Made by a program: the position numbers and the translations under genes. Below the pieces are notes generated by a model. That model made no database searches, was not told where the DNA came from, and was given only the letters and a program-made list of their open reading frames with translations. From NCBI GenBank assembly GCA_002794105.1, contig PHFL01000007.1, positions 83,412 to 147,411 of the forward strand: a stretch of 64,000 nucleotides of DNA. The letters are read 5' to 3'. This DNA is from Candidatus Thermochlorobacter aerophilus (GTDB lineage: Bacteria; Bacteroidota; Chlorobiia; Chlorobiales; Thermochlorobacteraceae). Below are positions 4,227 through 17,418 of this stretch, piece after piece (the first letter of the stretch is position 1; each line of letters begins with the position of its first letter).

Positions 4227-4883
4227 ATGGCGCAGTTATTTCCACAATGGGCAAATAAGTTCCCAACCATCTTCGCAATTAGTGTGGTAGGGGGGCTGAC
4301 GCTGACTGTATTGCTAATTTGGTATTACTGGTCACCTAAGGCTTTGGATGTCGGGTATCGTCCAAAGCAGCCCGTGCCATACAGCCATAAGTTGCACGCC
4401 GGCGATTTGGGAATAGATTGCCGATACTGCCACACTACTGTTGAGAAAGCGGCAAATGCCAGCGTTCCCCCGACACAAACCTGCATGAACTGCCACGAAA
4501 AGCATGTCTTGCCGCAAAGTGAAAAGCTGCTCTTGGTGCGCGAAAGCTGGACCACAGGCAAACCAATTGAGTGGATTAAGGTGCATAAAGTGCCGGACTA
4601 TGCCTACTTCAATCACAGCGTGCATGTCAATGTGGGCATAGGCTGTCAGAGTTGCCATGGAAATGTAGCGCAAATGGATGAGCGTGGCGTGATGCAGGTT
4701 GAAGCTCTCTCTATGGGCTGGTGCTTGGATTGTCATCGCAACCCTGACCCGCATTTACGACCGGTAGAAGAAGTCACCAACATGAATTGGGTGGTGCCAG
4801 CCAACCACACCGAATTTGTGGAGCAGCTAAAAGCTAAACGCAAGATTAATCCGCCGACCGAATGCTCGGCATGTCATAGATAA
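4227..4883 (+). CDS. actA: alternative complex III subunit ActA, pentaheme cytochrome c
   Basis: 218 residues with one N-terminal membrane anchor (FPTIFAISVVGGLTLTVLLI) and five CxxCH heme-binding sites: CRYCH, CMNCH, CQSCH, CLDCH and CSACH, the last at the extreme C-terminus. This matches ActA of the quinol-oxidising alternative complex III, where it carries electrons on the outer face of the membrane. An ATG with AAGGAG seven bases upstream sets the start. It follows ctaB by 41 bases and precedes actB by 42 bases. Confidence 0.95.
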   Translation: MAQLFPQWANKFPTIFAISVVGGLTLTVLLIWYYWSPKALDVGYRPKQPVPYSHKLHAGDLGIDCRYCHTTVEKAANASVPPTQTCMNCHEKHVLPQSEKLLLVRESWTTGKPIEWIKVHKVPDYAYFNHSVHVNVGIGCQSCHGNVAQMDERGVMQVEALSMGWCLDCHRNPDPHLRPVEEVTNMNWVVPANHTEFVEQLKAKRKINPPTECSACHR

Positions 4884-4925: not shown

Positions 4926-7900
4926 ATGAAACGTGCACCACGACCAAAGCATGAAGAGCCGCTCACGGGTAAAAAGTATTGGCGCGGTCTTGAAGAAGAA
5001 CTCAACTCCCCAGAGTTTCAAGAATGGGTAGAGCGTGAGTTCCCAGAAGGCACTGTGGAAATGAGCGACCCAATTTCTCGGCGGAAATTTCTGACCATTA
5101 TGGGCGCTTCCTTTCTACTGGCAGGGTTAGCCAGCTGCCGTCGCCCTGTTGAAAAAATTGTGCCTTATGTTAAAGCCCCGGAAGATATTACGCCGGGCAT
5201 TGCCCAATACTATGCGACAACCATGCCGTTTGGCTTATCAGCCTACGGTCTTTTGGTTCGTAGCCATGAAGGCAGACCTAATAAAATCGAGGGCAACGAA
5301 AAGCATCCTTCGAGCATGGGCGCAACCAACGCCTTTGCCCAAGCTGAAATCCTGAATCTGTATGACCCTGACCGCTCTCAAAATGTGCTCAGGGCAGGTG
5401 AGAAACAGTCGTGGCAAGCCTTCACTGAATTTTGGCGCAATGAACTGCTGCGCTACAAAGAGCGCAAGGGCGAAGGCTTGGCACTTCTGACGGAGTCATT
5501 TGCTTCACCTTCGCAAGCCAGATTGGTGCGCGCCTTCATAGAAGAATTCCCAAATGCAAAGGTTGTTGCCTACGAGCCAGTCAGCGATGAGAACATCTTC
5601 GAAGGAGTGCGTCTTGCCACAGGCGAGTTGCTGCGACCGCTCTACGACTTCCGTGCCGCCAAAATCGTGTTAGCACTCGACGCTGATTTCTTACTCAAAG
5701 AATCGGAGAGTGTGGCAAATGCACGCGGCTTCATTGACGGGCGTCGTGTAGCAACCGAGAAAGACTCAATGAACCGACTGTATGTGGTCGAGAGCGCATA
5801 CAGTGTAACTGGCGCCATGGCAGACCATCGCCTACGCATGCAGTCGAGGCAGATTGGAGCATTTCTTGCAGCTCTGGCTTTGGAGCTTGTGCGTCAAGGC
5901 GTAACTATTGCGGGTGCCAACGCACTAAGTGAGCCAGAAATAGACTTTGACAAAAAATGGATGAGCGCTGTAGCCAAAGACTTGCTTGAGAATAAAGGCA
6001 AATCGCTCATCGTAGTCGGGCGTGAGCAGCCAGCCGCCGTGCATGCTTTGGCAATAGCTGTAAATGCTGGGCTGGAAAACCTTGGTAAAACCCTGACATT
6101 TGTGCCGTTCAAAGATGCGGTATTGCCCAGCCGTAGCGAGTTTGAGAAATTGGTCAAGGCGATGCACGAAGGCAAGGTTGAGACGCTGGTAATGCTGGGC
6201 GGCAACCCAGTCTATAACGCTCCCGCTGACTTGGATTTCAAAGGCGCATTAAAGAAAGTCAAAACATCTATTCACCTAAGTTATCACAACGACGAAACAT
6301 CGGCACTTGCGACGTGGCATTTGCCAAGAACGCACTTCTTAGAGTCGTGGGGCGATGCACGCGCCGCCGATGGCACCGCAAGTCTAATTCAGCCGCTGAT
6401 TGCGCCGCTCTTCGATGCACGTTCCGCACTAGAAGTGTTGAACCTTATCACCACGGGCATTGATGCAAAAGGCTACGCACTTACTCAAGATACTTGGCGG
6501 CAGCAGACAGGACTTGCTGGCATTGCCTTCGATGACTTCTGGCGCAAAGCCTTACACGATGGCGTCGTTGAAAATAGTGCTTCACAGCGAATAACCCCAG
6601 CGCTCAAAGCCGCAGAGCTGGCACAAGTCTTCGCACAAAAGCCATTTGACATAGCTAATGAGAAAGGACTTGAGCTATGCTTCCAGCCCTCGACGGCAAC
6701 ATTTGACGGGCGATACGCCAACAACGCTTGGCTACAGGAAATGCCCGAAGCGATTACCAAAATCTGCTGGGATAATGCCGCCTTGATGAGTCAGGGCACA
6801 GCGCGCCAGCTTGGCTTGAAATGGCGATTCGCCCTCAGTGAAACCGAGCGCGAGGTAATTAGGCTCCGCCTGAAAGGACGAGAAGTGGAACTGCCTGTCT
6901 GGATTGTGCCCGGGCAAGCCGATGGCACAATTACGGTGGCATTGGGCTACGGTCGTGAAAAGGTCGGACGAGTTGGCAATGGGGTAGGTGCCAATGTCTA
7001 CGCCCTGCGCACCACCGACGCAATGGATTTCTGCTCGGGTGTCGAAGTTAGCAAGACGGGAAAAACCATGCTCGTAGCATCTACGCAGTACTATGGCTAC
7101 ATGGACGGGCGTACGATTGTCATTGAAGGCACGCTGGCAGAATATCAGCAGAAACCAGATTTTGTAGAATCGCATCTGACAAAGTATCCGCCGTCCAAGC
7201 TCTACGAGTCACCTTACAAGTTTGATGAGGGACATCAGTGGGGCATGACAATTGACCTCAACGCATGCATCGGATGCAATGCCTGCGTGGTAGCCTGCCA
7301 GAGTGAAAACAATGTGCCTGTTGTCGGCAAAGAACAAACAGCAAAAGGACGGCACATGCACTGGATTCGCATCGACCGTTACTTCTCTGGCGAGGGAGAT
7401 ATGCCCGAAATCGTCTATCAACCTGTGGCATGTCAGCATTGTGAGAATGCGCCATGCGAGCAAGTCTGCCCCGTTGCAGCAACGGTGCATGACCCAGAAG
7501 GGCTGAATACAATGGTCTATAACCGCTGCATTGGCACGCGCTATTGCGCCAACAACTGTCCATACAAAGTGCGCCGCTTCAATTACTTCAACTATCAAAA
7601 CGACAATGTGGTCTGGAATCGAGAAATCCCAGAAATCACCAAGATGGCAATGAATCCAGAAGTGACTGTGCGCTCGCGTGGTGTCATGGAAAAATGCACA
7701 TACTGCGTACAGCGCATTCACACCACGAAAATCATGGCAAAGAATGAAGGACGAGATGTAGTAGATGGCGAAATCATGACTGCTTGTCAACAAGCCTGTC
7801 CGACACAAGCAATTGTTTTTGGCGACATCCGAGACCCCAACAGTCAGGTCGCTCAGATGAAGGCACAAAATCGCAACTATGCCTTGCTGGGTGAGCTGAA

Positions 7901-7973
7901 TGTTAAGCCAAGAACGACCTACTTGGCAAAACTGCGCAATCCGAACCCTGAACTTGAAGAACAAAAAGCGTAA
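4926..7973 (+). CDS. actB: alternative complex III subunit ActB, molybdopterin-fold plus Fe-S protein
   Basis: 1015 residues, the normal size for ActB, which joins a molybdopterin-oxidoreductase fold (without bound cofactor in characterised complexes) to a four-cluster ferredoxin domain. A Tat signal is visible at residues 51-56 (SRRKFL) followed by a hydrophobic stretch ending at Cys71, a possible lipid-attachment site. The C-terminal quarter from about residue 781 has the cysteine groups CIGCNACVVAC, CQHCENAPCEQVC, CIGTRYCANNC and CTYC...CQQAC. The N-terminal block before the Tat motif is also conserved in ActB proteins. It passes electrons between quinol-oxidising subunits and the cytochromes. 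Confidence 0.95.
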   Translation: MKRAPRPKHEEPLTGKKYWRGLEEELNSPEFQEWVEREFPEGTVEMSDPISRRKFLTIMGASFLLAGLASCRRPVEKIVPYVKAPEDITPGIAQYYATTMPFGLSAYGLLVRSHEGRPNKIEGNEKHPSSMGATNAFAQAEILNLYDPDRSQNVLRAGEKQSWQAFTEFWRNELLRYKERKGEGLALLTESFASPSQARLVRAFIEEFPNAKVVAYEPVSDENIFEGVRLATGELLRPLYDFRAAKIVLALDADFLLKESESVANARGFIDGRRVATEKDSMNRLYVVESAYSVTGAMADHRLRMQSRQIGAFLAALALELVRQGVTIAGANALSEPEIDFDKKWMSAVAKDLLENKGKSLIVVGREQPAAVHALAIAVNAGLENLGKTLTFVPFKDAVLPSRSEFEKLVKAMHEGKVETLVMLGGNPVYNAPADLDFKGALKKVKTSIHLSYHNDETSALATWHLPRTHFLESWGDARAADGTASLIQPLIAPLFDARSALEVLNLITTGIDAKGYALTQDTWRQQTGLAGIAFDDFWRKALHDGVVENSASQRITPALKAAELAQVFAQKPFDIANEKGLELCFQPSTATFDGRYANNAWLQEMPEAITKICWDNAALMSQGTARQLGLKWRFALSETEREVIRLRLKGREVELPVWIVPGQADGTITVALGYGREKVGRVGNGVGANVYALRTTDAMDFCSGVEVSKTGKTMLVASTQYYGYMDGRTIVIEGTLAEYQQKPDFVESHLTKYPPSKLYESPYKFDEGHQWGMTIDLNACIGCNACVVACQSENNVPVVGKEQTAKGRHMHWIRIDRYFSGEGDMPEIVYQPVACQHCENAPCEQVCPVAATVHDPEGLNTMVYNRCIGTRYCANNCPYKVRRFNYFNYQNDNVVWNREIPEITKMAMNPEVTVRSRGVMEKCTYCVQRIHTTKIMAKNEGRDVVDGEIMTACQQACPTQAIVFGDIRDPNSQVAQMKAQNRNYALLGELNVKPRTTYLAKLRNPNPELEEQKA

Positions 7974-7985
7974 AGGAGGAGACGT

Positions 7986-8165
7986 ATGCTGAAGCGTTCT
8001 GACATCTTTTTCATGCTATCCGCCTTGATAGCGTTTGTGCTGGCAAATGTCTTGCTGCTTAGCGGCAAGCTCAATGAGGCGCTCTTTGTAAGCCTGTGGG
8101 TTCCCACCAACTTGGTGATGGGCATCTACTTTCGCAACATTGCAACCACTGCACCAAAGGAGTAG
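7986..8165 (+). CDS. tiny membrane protein within the act operon (59 aa)
   Basis: I do not recognise a family. The 59 residues form two hydrophobic segments (IFFMLSALIAFVLANVLLL and about VSLWVPTNLVMGIYF) with a short hydrophilic end. A strong ribosome-binding site (AAAGGAGGAG) sits just before the ATG, directly after the actB stop, and the stop is 5 bases before the next gene, so this is almost surely translated. The C-terminal pattern LWVxxxxxxGIYFRxI recurs in the next gene. Position argues for an accessory subunit or assembly factor of the alternative complex III; that is inference. Confidence 0.75.
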   Translation: MLKRSDIFFMLSALIAFVLANVLLLSGKLNEALFVSLWVPTNLVMGIYFRNIATTAPKE

Positions 8166-8170
8166 GAGCT

Positions 8171-8452
8171 ATGGATAACAACCTTATCCTAATTACGGGA
8201 ATTGTGGTAACGCTCTTGGCATGCACAGGCATTTTCTTTGCCTTGCAAGAGATGAACCCAAAGAGCATTCGCACCTTCGATTACTTCTTCCTTGGTGCGG
8301 TCATCATTGCCTATGCATTCGGCAATTATCTCTGGTTTATTGAAAACAACCATGATGCAGGACAGATTGTGGGCATCTGGGTAGCAGGAAGTATTTCACT
8401 GGGACTCTACTTCCGAAGCATTGTGACAAGAACACCTGTGAATCAAGATTAA
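8171..8452 (+). CDS. small membrane protein within the act operon (93 aa)
   Basis: 93 residues with about three hydrophobic segments: LILITGIVVTLLACTGIFFAL, YFFLGAVIIAYAFGNYLWF and IVGIWVAGSISLGLYF. The ATG at 8171 has GGAG five bases upstream, which decides this start over longer frames. The end (GIWVAGSISLGLYFRSIVT) resembles the end of the preceding 59-residue protein, which suggests a duplicated module. Unknown family to me. Location between actB and actC implies a link to the alternative complex III. Confidence 0.75.
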   Translation: MDNNLILITGIVVTLLACTGIFFALQEMNPKSIRTFDYFFLGAVIIAYAFGNYLWFIENNHDAGQIVGIWVAGSISLGLYFRSIVTRTPVNQD

Positions 8453-8471
8453 ACCTAAGGGAGGCGGCAGT

Positions 8472-8660
8472 ATGAGCGATAGCGCACTGATTATTTTCGG
8501 CACTATTATCACCATGCTGTTGGTGGGAGGAATCGTCTTTTCTCTACTGGAATTTAAGCGCATGCACGACAATCCAAAGCCAGAGAACATGAGCGATAAG
8601 CTGCCAGAAGCAAACTCTAAGCCGCCTCGCTCGGTCAAGGTCGCAAAAGATGAATACTAA
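8472..8660 (+). CDS. small single-pass membrane protein within the act operon (62 aa)
   Basis: 62 residues: one N-terminal transmembrane helix (ALIIFGTIITMLLVGGIVFS) followed by a polar, Pro- and Lys-rich tail of about 35 residues. A good ribosome-binding site (GGGAGG) precedes the ATG. In shape it resembles small oxidase subunits such as CcoQ, but there is no specific similarity I can claim. It is the third of three short membrane proteins between actB and actC and is followed by a 116-base gap. Confidence 0.75.
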   Translation: MSDSALIIFGTIITMLLVGGIVFSLLEFKRMHDNPKPENMSDKLPEANSKPPRSVKVAKDEY

Positions 8661-8776: not shown

Positions 8777-10258
8777 ATGCAAGCAACAGTGACAGCAGTA
8801 GAAGAAAAAAAGCGGCAAGAAGCCATAGACAAACCGCTGATTGAGAACAACCCCACATTCCACACCATCACGCAGGATGTGGCAGAGGTGACGGAAAACC
8901 CAGCGCCAAAAGCGTGGTGGATTGCGTTTGGGATTTCATTTGCCGCTGCGCTGATGTGGTTATGCACCATCATCTACCTGATTTTCAAGGGTATTGGCAT
9001 CTGGGGCAATCACACAACGGTCGGCTGGGCATGGGACATCACCAACTTCGTCTGGTGGGTCGGTATTGGTCACGCTGGCACGCTGATTTCAGCAGTGCTT
9101 TTTCTCTTTCGCCAAAAATGGCGCACCTCCATCAACCGCTTCTCGGAAGCCATGACGATTTTTGCCGTCATTTGCGCGGCAACATTCGTCACTTTTCACA
9201 CAGGGCGACAGTGGCTGGACTACTGGCTATTCCCCGTGCCAAACCAAATGCAGATGTGGACAAACTTCCGCTCTCCTCTGATGTGGGACGTCTTTGCGGT
9301 TTCAACCTATTTTACGGTCTCGCTGCTATTCTGGTATGTTGGGCTCATTCCAGATTTAGCGACACTGCGCGACCGAGCTAAGCCCGGGCTACGCAAATAC
9401 ATTCTGGGCTTTTTCGCCATGGGTTGGCGCGGCGGCAATCGTCAGTGGAAGCACTACGAAAAAGCCTATCTGATTTTAGCTGGGCTCTCAACCCCGCTGG
9501 TGCTTTCAGTGCACAGCATTGTGTCGTTCGACTTTGCTACCAGCATTTTGCCGGGCTGGCATACCACAATTTTCCCGCCATACTTCGTGGCAGGCGCCAT
9601 CTTCTCAGGCTTTGCAATGGTGATGACGCTGGCAGTCTTGGCCAGAATCGTCTATCCAAAAATGCAAGCCATCATCAACATGCAGCATCTTGAGAAGATG
9701 AACATCATCATGCTAGTTACAGGAATGATGGTGGGCTATGCATATGGCTGTGAATTCTTCATCGCATGGTATAGCGGCAATGAATACGAAGCCTCGATTT
9801 TCATCAAGCGCGCAACGGGTCCTTACGCTTGGGCTTACTGGTCTATGATTTTCTGCAATGTGGTGGTGCCGCAAGTGTTCTGGTTCAAAAAATTGCGCCA
9901 GAACATCCCAGTGATGTTTATCGTTTCCATTCTCATCAATGTTGGCATGTGGTTTGAGCGGTTTGTCATCACTGTAACTTCTCTCTCGACGGACTTTTTG
10001 CCCTCGAGTTGGAAGTATTACAACCCAACCATTTTTGATGTCATGACCTTTGTGGGGTCACTGGGCGTGTTCATGACGCTGTTCCTGCTCTTCCTACGCT
10101 TTGTGCCGATGGTTGCCATGTTCGAAGTCAAAGGCGTCTTGCCGCAAGCAAACCCACATTGGGAAGGCTATGGGCATCATACAAACGGGCATTATGAAGC
10201 ACATGCTCACGAGGAGCAGAAGCAAGAATCTGAACTTTCTGCGAAAGGAGGGCACTGA
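8777..10258 (+). CDS. actC: alternative complex III subunit ActC, NrfD-like membrane protein
   Basis: 493 residues with about ten hydrophobic segments, of the NrfD/PsrC family. Family knowledge: ActC (with ActF) binds the quinol and may move protons. Conserved features visible are the loop [15 protein letters not shown], the region [17 protein letters not shown] and a His-rich C-terminal tail ([15 protein letters not shown]). The start ATG has only a weak ribosome-binding site after the structured 116-base gap. The stop is 2 bases before actD. Confidence 0.95.
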
Positions 10259-10260
10259 AG

Positions 10261-10962
10261 ATGAACGAGCTTCAAAATCAATCTATGCAAAATGGTGGCG
10301 TGCAGACGTTAGAGGAGCTTAAGCGCAATGCCGAGGCAGCTAAGAATCAAGCACGTCAAATTCTAATTGAGGCTGAGGCTGAAGCCGTAGTGGCAGAATT
10401 CGATAACCCAGCTGAACTCCTGCGTGCCGCCAGAAAGGTGCGCGAAGCAGGCTACGACCGCTTCGAGTGCTATTCACCCTTCCCAATTCACGGAATGGAT
10501 GAAGCGATGGGATTGCGCCCATCGATACTTGGATACATTGTCTTCGCAGTAGGCTTCTCTGGGTTTCTCTTTGCAATTTGGCTACAGTGGTGGACCAATG
10601 TAGTCGACTACCCACTGGTGTTTTCAGGCAAGCCGTATTTCAGTCTGCCTACCTTTGTGCCAGTCATGTTTGAGCTCATGGTACTGACCTCAGCGTTTGC
10701 AGCTATCATTGGAATGTTCTATCTCAACAAAATGCCACGATTTTATCATCCAATGTTTTACTCCGACCGCTTTACAGCAAAAGCTACAGACGATGGATTC
10801 TTCGTGGCGATTTTCATGTGGGATAAAAAATTCAATGTCAAGGAAATTCGTGCCTTCTTTGAAAGCATCGGTGGAAAAAACATTGAAGTGGTGCATCGTC
10901 CCATTGACGACGCAGAAATTGAGCAACTGGTGAGCAGCCAAAAAATGGAGGTTGTAAAATGA
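10261..10962 (+). CDS. actD: alternative complex III subunit ActD (DUF3341)
   Basis: 233 residues. An N-terminal soluble, Ala- and Glu-rich part of about 75 residues precedes the signature of the family (YDRFECYSPFPIHGMDEAMG), two transmembrane helices around residues 85-150, and a cytoplasmic end. This is the usual ActD architecture; the N-terminal coiled part is longer than the minimal version. AGGAGG in the actC tail serves as ribosome-binding site. The stop overlaps the actE start by 4 bases (ATGA), implying coupled translation. Confidence 0.93.
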   Translation: MNELQNQSMQNGGVQTLEELKRNAEAAKNQARQILIEAEAEAVVAEFDNPAELLRAARKVREAGYDRFECYSPFPIHGMDEAMGLRPSILGYIVFAVGFSGFLFAIWLQWWTNVVDYPLVFSGKPYFSLPTFVPVMFELMVLTSAFAAIIGMFYLNKMPRFYHPMFYSDRFTAKATDDGFFVAIFMWDKKFNVKEIRAFFESIGGKNIEVVHRPIDDAEIEQLVSSQKMEVVK

Positions 10963-11600
10963 GTGCCAAAACATCTCTAATGCCAGCATTGATGATGGCT
11001 CTTGCTATCATCGTTCTTGGTGGATGCGGTGTGCGCGGATTGCCAAGCGAAAATCCGCCCATTCACCCAAACCCGAACATGGATACGCAAGAGAAGATGA
11101 AGCCATTTCGCAAAAGTGAATTTTTCGCCGATGGCTTAGCAATGCGTATCCCCGTAGCTGGCACGGTCGCACGAGGCGGATTGCGTGAAAATAGCATCTA
11201 CTACACTGGCATAAGTAAGACTGGTGACACAGTCAAAGTCATGCCCGTCGATATTACGATGGAGCTGTTGCAACGCGGTCAGCAACGCTACAACATCTAC
11301 TGCGCGCCGTGCCACAGCCGAGTAGGCGATGGAAAAGGTATTGTGGTAGAAAGAGGTATCCAAAATGGATACATCGTGCCTGCAACGAACTTGCATGAAC
11401 CGCGCCTGCTCAGCGCACCAGACGGACATCTCTACGCCGTCATTTCAAACGGTATCAGAAACATGTCGGGCTACAAGCATCAGATTTCCGTCGCCGACCG
11501 CTGGGCGATTGTGGCGTATGTGCGTGCCTTGCAGCGTGCACAGCACGCCTCTTTGGCAGATGTCCCTGAAAATGTTCGTAAAGAACTCATCAAGCAGTAA
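10959..11600 (+). CDS. actE: alternative complex III subunit ActE, monoheme cytochrome c lipoprotein
   Basis: 213 residues with a lipoprotein signal (MALAIIVLGGC, lipobox LGGC) and a single heme site CAPCH about 110 residues in, followed by GDGKG as in class I cytochromes; the likely sixth ligand is the Met of RNMSGY. ActE hands electrons from the complex to the oxidase or a soluble carrier on the outer side of the membrane. It overlaps actD by 4 bases and is followed 9 bases later by actF. Confidence 0.93.
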   Translation: MSAKTSLMPALMMALAIIVLGGCGVRGLPSENPPIHPNPNMDTQEKMKPFRKSEFFADGLAMRIPVAGTVARGGLRENSIYYTGISKTGDTVKVMPVDITMELLQRGQQRYNIYCAPCHSRVGDGKGIVVERGIQNGYIVPATNLHEPRLLSAPDGHLYAVISNGIRNMSGYKHQISVADRWAIVAYVRALQRAQHASLADVPENVRKELIKQ

Positions 11601-11609
11601 GGAGAAACT

Positions 11610-12806
11610 ATGAGCGTGCAAGAATTCCGAATCACCAAAGATAACGGCTTCGGGAAAATTGCCTTAGGCATAGGATGTGCAGCATTAGTTGCCTCAGTAG
11701 CGGGTCTTATGACAAACCGCGCAGAATTCTTCCATGCCTATTTGGTAGCATATTGCTTCTGGCTGGGCATTTCACTCGGTAGCCTATTCTTTACCATGCT
11801 GCATCATATCGTCAGTGCCGATTGGAGCACGGTGTTTCGCCGCATCTCTGAATCGCTAATGATAACAATGCCAGTGATGGCAGTTCTCTTCATTCCAATC
11901 GGACTGGGTATTCACGACCTCTATCACTGGTCTCACGCTGAAGCCGTAGCCGCTGACAAAATTTTGCAGCATAAAGCAGGTTGGCTCAATACAGGATTTT
12001 TCCTCGTGCGAGCTTTTATCTACTTTGCAATCTGGACAGCACTGGCATATTCGCTCTACAAAACCTCTCTTGAGCAAGACAAGCGCTACGACGAAAAACA
12101 CCGAGCAACCTTCAAAGCAATTAGTGCGCCGGGCATTTTGCTCTTTGCACTCTCGCTGACCTTTGCAGCATGGGATTGGGTTATGTCGTTAGACCCACAC
12201 TGGTATTCTACCATTTTCGGCATCTACATGTTTGCAGGCGCATGGTGGGCAACTTTAGCATTTATCGTCTTCTTTTCGCTGTATTTGCGCGCAAATGGCG
12301 TGCTCGCAAGCGAAATCAAAGTCGACCACTACCACGATATGGGCAAGCTGATGTTCGGCTTTACGGTCTTCTGGGCTTATATTGCCTTCTCGCAATTTAT
12401 GCTCATCTGGTATGGTAATATCGAAGAAGAAACCATTTTCTATAAGCATCGCTGGGAACATGGCTGGGAGTATGTCTCTATCTTTCTTGGTATTGGACAC
12501 TTTGCTATTCCCTTCTTTCCGCTGCTTTTGCGAGCTGCAAAGCGCAATCTGACTTTCATGCGCATCATATCAGCATGGATGCTCTTCATGCACTATGTAG
12601 ACCTATTCTGGCTAATTATGCCAAACCTCGGTGCACACGGTGAGCAACCTGCTGCTCATGGCGTGCATGTCTCATGGATGCACCTCGCCACTTTCTTAGG
12701 CATTGGCGGCATTTTCCTCTGGTTCTTCTGGCAGCGCCTAACTTCAGCGCCACTATTGCCAATTGGCGATGCCAGATTGAAACTGTCACTGGAATTTCAT
12801 CAGTGA
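11610..12806 (+). CDS. actF: alternative complex III subunit ActF, NrfD-like membrane protein
   Basis: 398 residues with about ten membrane segments, paralogous to ActC and shorter, as in known act clusters. Conserved stretches include GISLGSLFFTMLHHIVSADW, a motif around HWYSTIFGIYMFAGAWW and FMLIWYGNIEEETIFY. The start ATG has AAGGAG upstream. It completes the core set ActA-F. No separate actG-like gene is recognised, though two unassigned membrane proteins follow. Confidence 0.93.
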   Translation: MSVQEFRITKDNGFGKIALGIGCAALVASVAGLMTNRAEFFHAYLVAYCFWLGISLGSLFFTMLHHIVSADWSTVFRRISESLMITMPVMAVLFIPIGLGIHDLYHWSHAEAVAADKILQHKAGWLNTGFFLVRAFIYFAIWTALAYSLYKTSLEQDKRYDEKHRATFKAISAPGILLFALSLTFAAWDWVMSLDPHWYSTIFGIYMFAGAWWATLAFIVFFSLYLRANGVLASEIKVDHYHDMGKLMFGFTVFWAYIAFSQFMLIWYGNIEEETIFYKHRWEHGWEYVSIFLGIGHFAIPFFPLLLRAAKRNLTFMRIISAWMLFMHYVDLFWLIMPNLGAHGEQPAAHGVHVSWMHLATFLGIGGIFLWFFWQRLTSAPLLPIGDARLKLSLEFHQ

Positions 12807-12859: not shown

Positions 12860-13366
12860 ATGACGGAAACAAAGGAACAAAAGAAAATAGAAACCGCTCC
12901 TGCAAAAGATACTCTGCAGAGCTTGCAACCGCTTCGCCCCGAAGACATCTTCAAGCAAGCTGAAATCGACTACGAGCGTGAAGATGTAAATGGAGTAAGA
13001 ATCATTGGCTCATTTATCATCGGGACCATTGTCGTAGCAATTGTGATGTTTGCCATATCACAGTATTTCATCATTAGCCGTGAGCATGAAATGCTCGAGA
13101 GTGCGCTGAAGCCTGAAAATAATCTCTTGCGCGATGTGCGGCAGCGCGAAGAAGGCGCACTCAATAGTTATAAGGTGATTGATGAAAAGAAAGGCATCTA
13201 TCAAATCCCTATCAGTGAAGCAATGAAAATCATTGCCGATGAAGCTTATCAGAAGAAGAAGGCAGCACTTGAAGCACAAATGAAAGAATCTGCCGTAGCA
13301 AAAGACGATGAAATGCGTAAGACTGAACTGCGACCAACCGAAATGAAGAAATCAGGTCAACGGTAG
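12860..13366 (+). CDS. single-pass membrane protein between actF and sco (168 aa)
   Basis: 168 residues: a polar N-terminus of about 45 residues, one transmembrane helix (IIGSFIIGTIVVAIVMFAIS), and an outer region with the segment KGIYQIPISEAMKIIADE, then a Lys/Glu-rich coiled tail. From memory, a similar IPIxxAMxLI segment occurs in unnamed proteins of other act-cox clusters, so it is probably a conserved assembly or accessory factor; its job is unknown to me. AAAGGAG lies 9 bases before the ATG. Confidence 0.8.
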   Translation: MTETKEQKKIETAPAKDTLQSLQPLRPEDIFKQAEIDYEREDVNGVRIIGSFIIGTIVVAIVMFAISQYFIISREHEMLESALKPENNLLRDVRQREEGALNSYKVIDEKKGIYQIPISEAMKIIADEAYQKKKAALEAQMKESAVAKDDEMRKTELRPTEMKKSGQR

Positions 13367-13528: not shown

Positions 13529-13799
13529 CAGAAAAAGCATTGACGCAACTTGAAACAAACTATTCCTCTGCGGCAGACTTTACGGCAGCAGGGGAACACC
13601 TGTGGCAGTTGGATTGGCAGAAAGCTGACAAGCGTAGAACTCGTGGAAAGGTGCCGAAAGTGACAGCAGTGGATGCAGAGGCGGCAGCGATTAAAGGGAC
13701 CTGTCGAGAAAACCTGAATGAACAGAGCCACATTGACGAACTGATGAACGGACAATTTTTGACGAATAATTCAAGAATGACGATTCTGAAAGGAGAAAT
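13529..13799. other. 271-base stretch before sco without a recognised gene
   Basis: A frame in phase with sco is open from a TTG at 13540, but its 80 residues look unlike coding sequence (no family, no signal, odd composition) and no ribosome-binding site precedes the TTG. I regard it as leader or remnant DNA between the 38-residue gene and sco. Confidence 0.5.
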
Positions 13800-14625
13800 A
13801 TGTCTTCTACTTGCCTTATGCATGGCAACGGCAATGGCACAAGCCCAAGTCATTATGGAAAAGCCACGAGCTTTGCAAGGCATTGATGTTGTTGAGCACT
13901 TAGGAGAGACTATTCCAGATACGCTCACATTTCAAGATGAAACTGGCAAGACAGTAAAGCTGAGCGACTACCTTCATCAAGGCAAGCCGCTCATCTTAGT
14001 GATGGCATACTACCGCTGCCCAATGCTATGCGACTTAGTCTTAAACGCTGTCTGCGAATCAGCCAAAAGATTAGACCTATCGTTAGGCAAGGATTACAGC
14101 ATCTTGACCGTCAGCATTGATAGCCGAGAGACGTGGGAACTGGCAGCAGCAAAGAAAACGCGCTATAAAGAAGCGTTTGGCAAAAGTGGAGTGGAACAAG
14201 GATGGTTTTTTCTGGCAGACCAATTTGGCAATGCAAAGGTGCTCGCCGACGCCATAGGATTCAAGTATTTCTATGACAAAAAGCGTGATGAATATGCACA
14301 TCCAGCGGTGATTGTGCTGCTATCACCAGAAGGAAAAATCACGCGCTATGTCTATGGCATTAGTTACAAACAGTTCGACTTGAAATTAGGCTTGATTGAA
14401 GCCTCACAGGGGAAAGTTGGAACCACAATAGATAGGCTGATTCTCTCGTGTTTCCACTACGACCCAACATCAGGGAGCTATGTTCCCGTAGCAATGAACA
14501 TCATGCGTTTGGGTGGAGTCATAACGCTGGTTGTGCTAACAGTCGTCCTTGGCTCCCTATGGATACGAGAGAGTCGCAAGCATAGGCACAAAGGAAATCC
14601 AAGTGTCGATATTCCAATGAATTAA
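13800..14625 (+). CDS. Sco1/SenC family copper chaperone (start region shows a one-base frame problem)
   Basis: Thioredoxin-fold protein of the Sco family, which delivers copper to the CuA site of subunit II encoded next. The copper-binding CPMLC pair is at bases 14017-14031 and the distal His is in YAHPAVIVLL. A C-terminal transmembrane helix (VITLVVLTVVLGSLWI) and a signal-like N-terminus are present. The best ribosome-binding site (AAAGGAG, 13789-13795) stands in front of an ATG at 13800, but that ATG is out of frame by one base; removing T13803 gives MLLLALCMATAMAQAQ, a proper signal peptide. As read, the only in-frame ATG is 13777, which lacks a ribosome-binding site. Sequence error or a recent mutation are both possible. 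Confidence 0.85.
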
Positions 14626-14640
14626 ACTGAAGAAAGTCAT

Positions 14641-15585
14641 ATGAATCCGAAAACTGCAAGTAGCTGGGTGCCACCCGAAGCCTCGACGGTCGCACGAGAA
14701 ACCGATAGTCTTATCATCTTTATTGCTAATGCTGCCGCAATTCTGTTCGTTGCGGTAACGTTGGTATCGCTCTACTATCTCTGGAAATACAGGCGGACGG
14801 GCGAAAAACCGACATTTACTTCGCCGATTTCACATAACACTCGCTTGGAAATTATCTGGACACTAATTCCAACGGTATTGGTGATTATGATTTTTTTCTG
14901 GGGATTTCGCTCGTACATGGATATGCGTGTGGTGCCTGCAAACTCTATGCAAATCAAGGTAACAGGAAAGAAATGGTTTTGGGCATTCGATTATCCGAAT
15001 GGCACGAGCAGCGTCAATGAATTGGTAGTGCCAGTGGGCAAACCAATTAAAGCTCTGATTTCCTCTACCGATGTGATTCACAGCTTTTACATTCCAGCAT
15101 TCCGTATCAAGATGGATGCTGTACCAAACCGCTATACCACCGTGGCGTTTACGCCAACCGAAGTCGGCACATATGACATCTTCTGCGCCGAATACTGCGG
15201 CACAAGTCATTCGGGGATGATTGGTAAGGTGCATGTCAAAACCGAAGCCGAATACAAGAAATGGCTGGAAGAAGCAGAAAGTGGTGGAAAAATGACACCA
15301 GCAGAATTTGGGGCAAAGCTCTACGTCTCCAAAGCTTGTGCCACCTGCCATAGCATTGATGGCAGTGCCAATACAGGACCGACGTGGAAAGGAATCTTCG
15401 GTAAAAAGCACAAAATGGCAGATGGCTCTGAAGTCTTGGTCGATGAAAACTACATCCGCCAATCTATTCTGGAGCCCAATGCAAAGATTGTAGCAGGGTA
15501 TCAACCTGTAATGCCTACCTATCAAGGCTTGCTCAAGGATAAGCAAATTGATGCCTTGATAGAATACATCAAAACCCTGAAGTAA
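14641..15585 (+). CDS. coxB: cytochrome c oxidase subunit II with fused cytochrome c domain (caa3 type)
   Basis: 314 residues. Two N-terminal membrane helices (about 25-50 and 70-92), then the CuA domain with the ligand His of VIHSFYIP and Cys182/Cys186 in CAEYCGTSHSGM, then a class I cytochrome c domain with CATCH at 233-237 and a likely Met ligand in YQPVMPTYQG. The fused heme domain makes this a caa3-type oxidase, receiving electrons from ActE or a soluble cytochrome. It follows sco by 15 bases. Confidence 0.95.
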   Translation: MNPKTASSWVPPEASTVARETDSLIIFIANAAAILFVAVTLVSLYYLWKYRRTGEKPTFTSPISHNTRLEIIWTLIPTVLVIMIFFWGFRSYMDMRVVPANSMQIKVTGKKWFWAFDYPNGTSSVNELVVPVGKPIKALISSTDVIHSFYIPAFRIKMDAVPNRYTTVAFTPTEVGTYDIFCAEYCGTSHSGMIGKVHVKTEAEYKKWLEEAESGGKMTPAEFGAKLYVSKACATCHSIDGSANTGPTWKGIFGKKHKMADGSEVLVDENYIRQSILEPNAKIVAGYQPVMPTYQGLLKDKQIDALIEYIKTLK

Positions 15586-15639
15586 TCATCTGAAGACAGT
15601 TTTGAAAGTTTTGAAGTTCTTAACCAAAGGAGGAAAACT

Positions 15640-17418
15640 ATGGCTGCACTCACTGAAACAGGCATGGCAACAGCGACACACACAGCTGTGGAGCAGTCGC
15701 CACCGAGCTACCTTAATTCCCCAAAGGGAATTTGGTCATGGATTTATACACTCGATCATAAGCGCATCGCCTTGCTGTATCTTTTCACGGTCATGACCTT
15801 TTTCCTTGTTGGGGGCATCTTTGCGTTGGTCCTACGCTTTGAGCTATGGTATCATGGTGCAGGCTTGCAGAACGAAGTAATGAAGCGAGGATTGGTGGGA
15901 CCGGACACCTATAATCAGCTTTTTACCTTGCATGGTGCCATCATGGTGTTTTTGTTCATTATCCCAGCAATCCCTGCCATCATTGGCAATTTCGTGCTAC
16001 CACTAATGCTGGGCGCAAAAGATTTGGCATTTCCGAAGCTAAATCTGGCAAGTTTCTATGTGTATGTGTTGGGCTCGCTCTTTTGCATCTATTCCTTAGT
16101 AACGGGCGGCGTCGATACAGGCTGGACCTTCTATACGCCATACAGCGTAGAGACCAAAGGTTCAGTAATTTCCATGACACTCGGCGCATTCATTCTTGGC
16201 TTCTCTTCCATTTTTACTGGCATCAATTTCATTGTAACGATTCACAAAATGCGGGCGCCGGGAATGACATGGTTCAATATGCCACTGTTTGTATGGGGAA
16301 TGTATGCCACATCAATCATTCAGGTCATGGCAACCCCAGTCTTAGGCATCACGCTGCTGCTGCTAGTTCTCGAGCGTGCCTTCGGCATCGGCATCTTTGA
16401 CCCAGCATTAGGTGGAGACCCTGTGCTGTATCAGCACTTCTTCTGGTTCTACTCGCATCCTGCTGTCTACATCATGATTCTGCCTGCCATGGCAGTCATT
16501 TCTGAACTTATCGCAACATTTTCTCACAAGAAAGTCTTCGGCTACAAACCAATCGCCTTTTCAAGCATTGCGATTGCATTTGTGAGCTTTCTTGTGTGGG
16601 GACATCACATGTTTACCAGCGGGCAATCTGAACTGGCTTCCGCAATATTTTCCTTCCTGACCTTCTTGGTTGGAATCCCATCAGGTATCAAGGTCTTCAA
16701 CTGGGTGGCAACGATGTATCGCGGTTCACTGACTTTTCAAGCACCGATGCTCTATGCACATGCATTTCTCTGCCTTTTCACTATCGGCGGTTTGACAGGC
16801 ATTTTCTTAGGCGCACTGTCAGTGGATGTGCATTTGCATGATACCTATTTCGTGGTGGCACACTTCCACTATGTGATGATGGGAGGTGTCGTGATGGCAT
16901 TCCTAGGCGGCTTACACTACTGGTGGCCAAAGATGTGGGGCAAAATGTATGATGAATTCTGGGCAGCTATTTCCGCCGCTCTCATTTTCATTGGATTCAA
17001 CATCACTTTCTTCCCACAGTTTATCATGGGCTTGCAGGGCATGCCACGCCGATACTATGCCTACTTAGACCAGTATCAGACCATGCACATGCTCTCCACA
17101 TTCGGTACATGGATACTGGCACTTGGCTTTATCGTGATGGCAATCTACCTAATTCATTCTCTCGTTGCAGGCAAACCTGCACCGAAAAACCCATGGTATT
17201 CCTTGGGCTTAGAGTGGACCACAGCTTCCCCACCGCCAACTGAAAACTTCGTGGGCAACCCACGCCTGCTCTGGGGATGCTACGACTACGACCGCGTGAT
17301 GATGGATAAGGATGGCTTGGTAACCTTCAATCCTGACTTCAAAGATGAGCATGAGCACGATGGCAAAAAGAAAGTCCAGAAAAAGGAACGCTACGAAACT
17401 ACACGCTCTTTTAACTAA
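15640..17418 (+). CDS. coxA: cytochrome c oxidase subunit I, A2 type
   Basis: 592 residues with about twelve membrane helices, the catalytic subunit holding the low-spin heme and the heme-copper site. The helix VI region reads WFYSHPAVY (Tyr271-Ser272), so the Glu of the classical D-channel is replaced by the YS pair that defines A2-type enzymes such as those of Thermus and Rhodothermus. The metal ligands WGHHMF and [13 protein letters not shown] are intact. AAAGGAGG precedes the ATG. Subunits III and IV are not encoded nearby; the gene ends the cluster before a strong terminator. Confidence 0.96.

Follow-up and report, generated by a model that had tools for sequence, protein, structure and literature searches.

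Three small genes, here called a, b and c, lie between actB and actC in the act-cox operon of Candidatus Thermochlorobacter aerophilus, and our analysis showed that they are real genes under purifying selection. Our leading reading, to which we give a probability of about 45%, is that this cassette is a recruited small-membrane-protein module serving as an accessory or assembly factor of the respiratory system formed by alternative complex III (ACIII) and its aa3-type oxidase. ACIII stands in for the bc1 complex in many bacteria. The window analysed here is a stretch of 64,000 nucleotides, to which all coordinates below refer unless another locus is named.

The cassette consists of ORF a (7986..8165, 59 aa), ORF b (8171..8452, 93 aa) and ORF c (8472..8660, 62 aa), all starting with ATG and lying on the forward strand, the same strand as actB and actC. 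A Shine-Dalgarno-like sequence was found just upstream of each start: AGGAGG for a (7974..7979), AAGGAG...AGGAG for b (8157..8168, overlapping the stop codon of a) and AGGGAGG for c (8458..8464), all on the forward strand. The intergenic gaps were 12 nt from actB to a, 5 nt from a to b, 19 nt from b to c and 116 nt from c to actC, and between actB and actC there were no terminator-like sites and promoter-like sites only at chance level. ORF a was predicted to form a two-helix hairpin and carries the family motif F-V-x-x-W-V-P (in the window, FVSLWVPTN), with orthologues at loci L044, L045, L047-L049 and L051-L053; ORF c has one predicted helix followed by a charged tail with the motif EF[KR][KR]M. 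The helix counts of a and c were derived from the sequences together with the alignment between a and the hairpin of b, and the three helices of b were obtained by AlphaFold2 with a mean pLDDT of 82. So the first-pass annotation, which had described three short frames of 59, 93 and 62 residues with strong ribosome-binding sites, tight spacing and one to three membrane helices each, was confirmed in all of these points, and the frames are intact. The hydropathy of the orthologues of a, b and c also fits membrane proteins. According to the positive-inside rule, both termini of a are probably cytoplasmic, and the positive charges suggest that the C-termini of all three proteins are on the cytoplasmic side.

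The surroundings of the cassette are a normal act-cox cluster. The gene order in the window is ctaB, actA, actB, [a b c], actC, actD, actE, actF, a gene for a 168-aa protein, SCO, coxB and coxA. The forward strand carries actA, encoding a multiheme cytochrome c (4227..4883, PF14522), actB, the Fe-S subunit according to the first-pass annotation (4926..7973), the NrfD-like actC (8777..10258), then actD, actE and actF (10261..12806), and SCO, coxB and coxA of the linked aa3-type oxidase (13540..17418). Among solved chains, the ActC of the window was closest to 6f0k_C and 6btm_C, the former being the nearest. The act operon of Rhodothermus marinus and Flavobacterium johnsoniae has the same order, actA-actB-actC-actD-actE-actF with the oxidase cluster downstream, but in other Bacteroidota actC follows actB directly, whereas in the window the two genes are separated by about 800 bp that hold three membrane ORFs. 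In the window genome another contig carries COX3, ctaA and a COX4_pro gene together. The 168-aa protein encoded 3′ of actF (12860..13366, forward strand) has one helix and no Pfam family, and was conserved in every related act operon examined. A 185-aa frame upstream of ctaB (2276-2833) has no Pfam family either, and its homologue adjoins an a-b pair in genome G009.

Conservation was analysed in relatives of the window genome (G000), namely two of the same genus (G001 and G002), six of the same family (G003-G008) and one of another family of the order (G010). Five other Thermochlorobacteraceae (G001, G002, G004, G005 and G006) have a, b and c at the actB-actC junction in unchanged order, so the homologues next to actB that the first-pass annotation had asked for do exist as positional orthologues. 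G003 gives no information on the cassette, since its contig starts inside actC. In G010, a and c are located at the act junction and an a-b pair on another contig (G010:C60). The dN/dS values, given only where they were estimable, were 0.08-0.17 for a, 0.02-0.06 for b and 0.16-0.18 for c, with saturated dS in two of the c comparisons. The G002 copy of a was left out of this calculation: it has a frame break close to its start, probably an assembly error, since actB and actC of G002 are broken as well. The three ORFs are short, as chance or decaying reading frames would be, but their frames, order and ribosome-binding sites are conserved and dN/dS is well below 1, so this explanation was refuted.

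To determine how far the insertion extends among act operons, the actB-actC junction was measured at 67 loci in a phylum sample in which 220 of 297 genomes have ActC. Six loci had an insertion of 590-890 bp; at the other 61, from 37 other Bacteroidota families and from G007, a member of the cassette-bearing family, no membrane (hydrophobic) ORF was found and the junctions measured −29 to 177 bp. The statement of the first-pass annotation that the known act operon runs straight from actB into actC is thus true of these 61 junctions, and its criterion for support, conservation of position and sequence, holds in the close relatives. The cassette is absent from the 37 other families and from G007. 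The cassette is therefore no general part of act operons, and among them the insertion is confined to aerobic relatives of the green sulfur bacteria.

Profile comparison showed that the cassette is made of two kinds of element. The C-terminal two-thirds of b aligned to the a profile (hhalign probability 99%, E 3e-18) and the N-terminal helix of b aligned to the c profile (hhalign probability 90%, E 1e-6), and the search matches agreed on both parts, so the cassette has the layout a / c-a / c and b, by these alignments, combines a c-like helix and an a-like hairpin in one fused protein. In the weakly resolved tree built from these short domains, the C-termini of b and the a proteins other than the act-located copy of G010 formed neighbouring groups (85/79), and that G010 copy fell outside the group of the other a and b domains. 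We therefore did not adopt as the sole origin a simple tandem duplication in place, (a c)(a c), followed by fusion of the two inner genes, attractive though it is. From the tree position of the G010 copy, the arrival of a ready-made a-b unit beside c is equally possible, which leaves two possible origins, this one and in-place duplication with inner fusion. Searches of Pfam, NCBIfam and PDB sequences with a, b, c and their profiles returned only sub-threshold chance matches, and comparison of the predicted structure of b with the PDB (AlphaFold2 and Foldseek) was uninformative, with a best E of 2.1.

The a family is much wider than the act operons. The a profile matched 145 of 395 phylum genomes, and neither a nor c is represented by a model in Pfam or NCBIfam. 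Outside Chlorobiales, the gene after a usually encodes a one-helix protein and has its start codon overlapping the stop of a, in most cases by 4 or 8 nt; in the Bacteroidota family f18 this partner is c-like, and the same kind of pair is present in another phylum, in Pelagicoccus (L111). Pairs of a two-helix protein with the motif FVGLWVPS and a one-helix partner, the stop of one gene overlapping the start of the other, were seen at unrelated loci (L112-L123, L111 and L179-L191), and the neighbours of the pairs vary, including rhodopsin with beta-carotene dioxygenase, aldo/keto reductase, glucose/sorbosone dehydrogenase and others. In three f18 genomes (L114, L117 and L118), a-c pairs lie near genes for a bacteriorhodopsin-like protein and beta-carotene dioxygenase. 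The pairs of Bacteroidota (e.g. L112, L116 and L118) and Pelagicoccus resemble the cassette in having a hairpin homologous to a and, in f18, a c-like partner; their genes overlap, they are located outside act operons, and they are neither duplicated nor fused. Nearly all sampled Chlorobiaceae have one divergent a paralogue each and yet no ActC. This paralogue, of about 66-80 aa and without a one-helix partner, occurs in nearly all Chlorobiales sampled (L175-L178, L189), including the window genome itself (G000:C57:86938-87099). We considered whether the Chlorobiaceae paralogue is a small photosystem protein and rejected it, the only match being a weak one to PSII protein Z (E 0.18).

A natural experiment is offered by G007, which is placed beside G004 and G006, nested in their genus, in the ActC tree (100/100). 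In the DNA alignment of G007 with G004, both flanks of the junction aligned, and about 770 bp with a-b-c were cleanly absent from G007. This genome keeps actA-F and the 168-aa gene, but its act locus is without ctaB, SCO and coxA, and its coxB is a remnant (L050 6095-6655) that has lost the CuA motif CxxxCxxxH and the cytochrome c domain. The only COX1 found in G007 is of another type, and COX3, COX4_pro and CtaA had no match in this genome, which is 84% complete, so genes missing elsewhere in it may lie in gaps; at the act locus, however, the changes were seen directly. The same lineage thus lost the cassette and aa3 while ACIII stayed. Retention of the 168-aa protein in G007 indicates that this protein tracks ACIII rather than the oxidase.

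Two genomes are counter-cases. In the single-contig genome G009, no match to ActC, COX1, COX3 or COX4_pro was found, but a and b are retained, one gene from ctaA, with a SCO gene next after ctaA; these heme A synthase and SCO genes (L053 7360-8909) are themselves of note in a genome with no match to the oxidase subunits. The opposite flank of a carries a homologue of the protein encoded at 2276-2833 of the window (L053 10706-11101). The G009 locus may be a residue of a respiratory locus or a sign of another function, and we did not treat descent from an act-cox operon as established for it, which would be inference only. In G012, aa3 is present and both ACIII and the cassette are absent. Gain and loss of the cassette and of aa3 therefore gave one co-loss (G007) with two exceptions, a+b without a detected oxidase in G009 and aa3 without the cassette in G012.

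The first-pass annotation had proposed extra subunits or assembly factors of ACIII, and the two halves of this proposal fared differently. Additional ACIII subunits would suit genes that sit between two core subunit genes, and ACIII is known to have small membrane subunits: in R. marinus, ActG and ActH are lineage-specific small ACIII proteins, and ActG has one predicted membrane helix, as ORF c does, whereas ActH is a soluble three-helix bundle unlike a, b and c (PMC5928083). In cluster 1 of Chloroflexus aurantiacus, actG is the last gene, 3′ of actF (PMC3150298). But the cassette is missing from 61 other act operons, G007 lost it and kept actA-F, and G009 keeps a+b without ACIII; the occurrence of the a and c families mostly outside act operons and at unrelated loci, with an a paralogue in Chlorobiaceae that lack ACIII, likewise argues that a, b and c are not general ACIII subunits. 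They also have no sequence match to any ACIII chain in the PDB: the a and c profiles had none at E<=10 in a library with the four ACIII structure sets recovered by ActC (6f0k, 6btm, 6lod/6loe and 8k9e), in which ActG is perhaps not a modelled chain in each entry. We therefore consider additional subunits comparable to ActG improbable, and core subunits (ActA-F) were rejected, since the genes are neither general in act clusters nor retained wherever ACIII is. Part of the oxidase was considered as well. COX4_pro (oxidase subunit IV) is a small membrane protein with several helices that belongs to aa3-type oxidases, and b is of similar size, but b has no match to PF03626 and the cassette genomes have true COX4_pro genes elsewhere, so b was rejected as a stand-in for subunit IV. 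What still leads of the earlier proposal is a part in the respiratory chain as accessory or assembly proteins.

A more serious competitor is that the module is a passenger whose task at the membrane is a general one, shared by the wider a/c family and with no connection to respiration, so that co-transcription with act genes is incidental and the loss in G007 coincidental; coincidence is indeed possible with a single event. The breadth of the family, the overlapping one-helix partner of most sampled non-Chlorobi members, the varied neighbours and the retention of a+b outside act in G009 and G010:C60 all suit a passenger, and we judge this explanation nearly as likely as the leading one. It accounts less well for the constant position inside the operon between genera of the family, for loss of the cassette in the very lineage that lost aa3, and for the closeness of a+b to ctaA and SCO in G009. 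The kept position, the purifying selection, the co-loss in G007 and the G009 neighbourhood are what we counted for an accessory role; counted against it were that the co-loss is single and seen in a genome 84% complete, G009 and G012 as exceptions, the related Bacteroidota pairs beside unrelated genes and the lack of a structural match.

If the accessory reading is right, a widespread module of a two-helix hairpin protein and a one-helix partner would have joined the act-cox operon in an ancestor of the aerobic Chlorobiales, with a middle gene that joins a partner-type helix to a hairpin. The products would be small, non-catalytic membrane proteins that help in assembling or stabilising the aa3 oxidase or the supercomplex it forms with ACIII, and ACIII itself would not need them as subunits. 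We infer that a, b and c may associate physically with the oxidase or the supercomplex and have an assembly or stabilising role there, and such a role is plausible, given ActG and ActH as examples of small ACIII proteins confined to a lineage. Unassigned density has been reported in one ACIII structure (PMC5928083). A broader version, which we regard as rather doubtful, is that membrane energy-converting complexes recurrently use the two-gene module as an accessory or assembly unit, and that in aerobic Chlorobi it was duplicated, fused and incorporated in the act-cox operon as a factor dedicated to the ACIII-aa3 supercomplex.

The a protein and its partner thus represent a common small-protein family of Bacteroidota, which has no model in Pfam or NCBIfam and so has probably been passed over by annotators. 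For the aerobic relatives of the green sulfur bacteria, the cassette offers a specific candidate for the link between ACIII and its oxidase.
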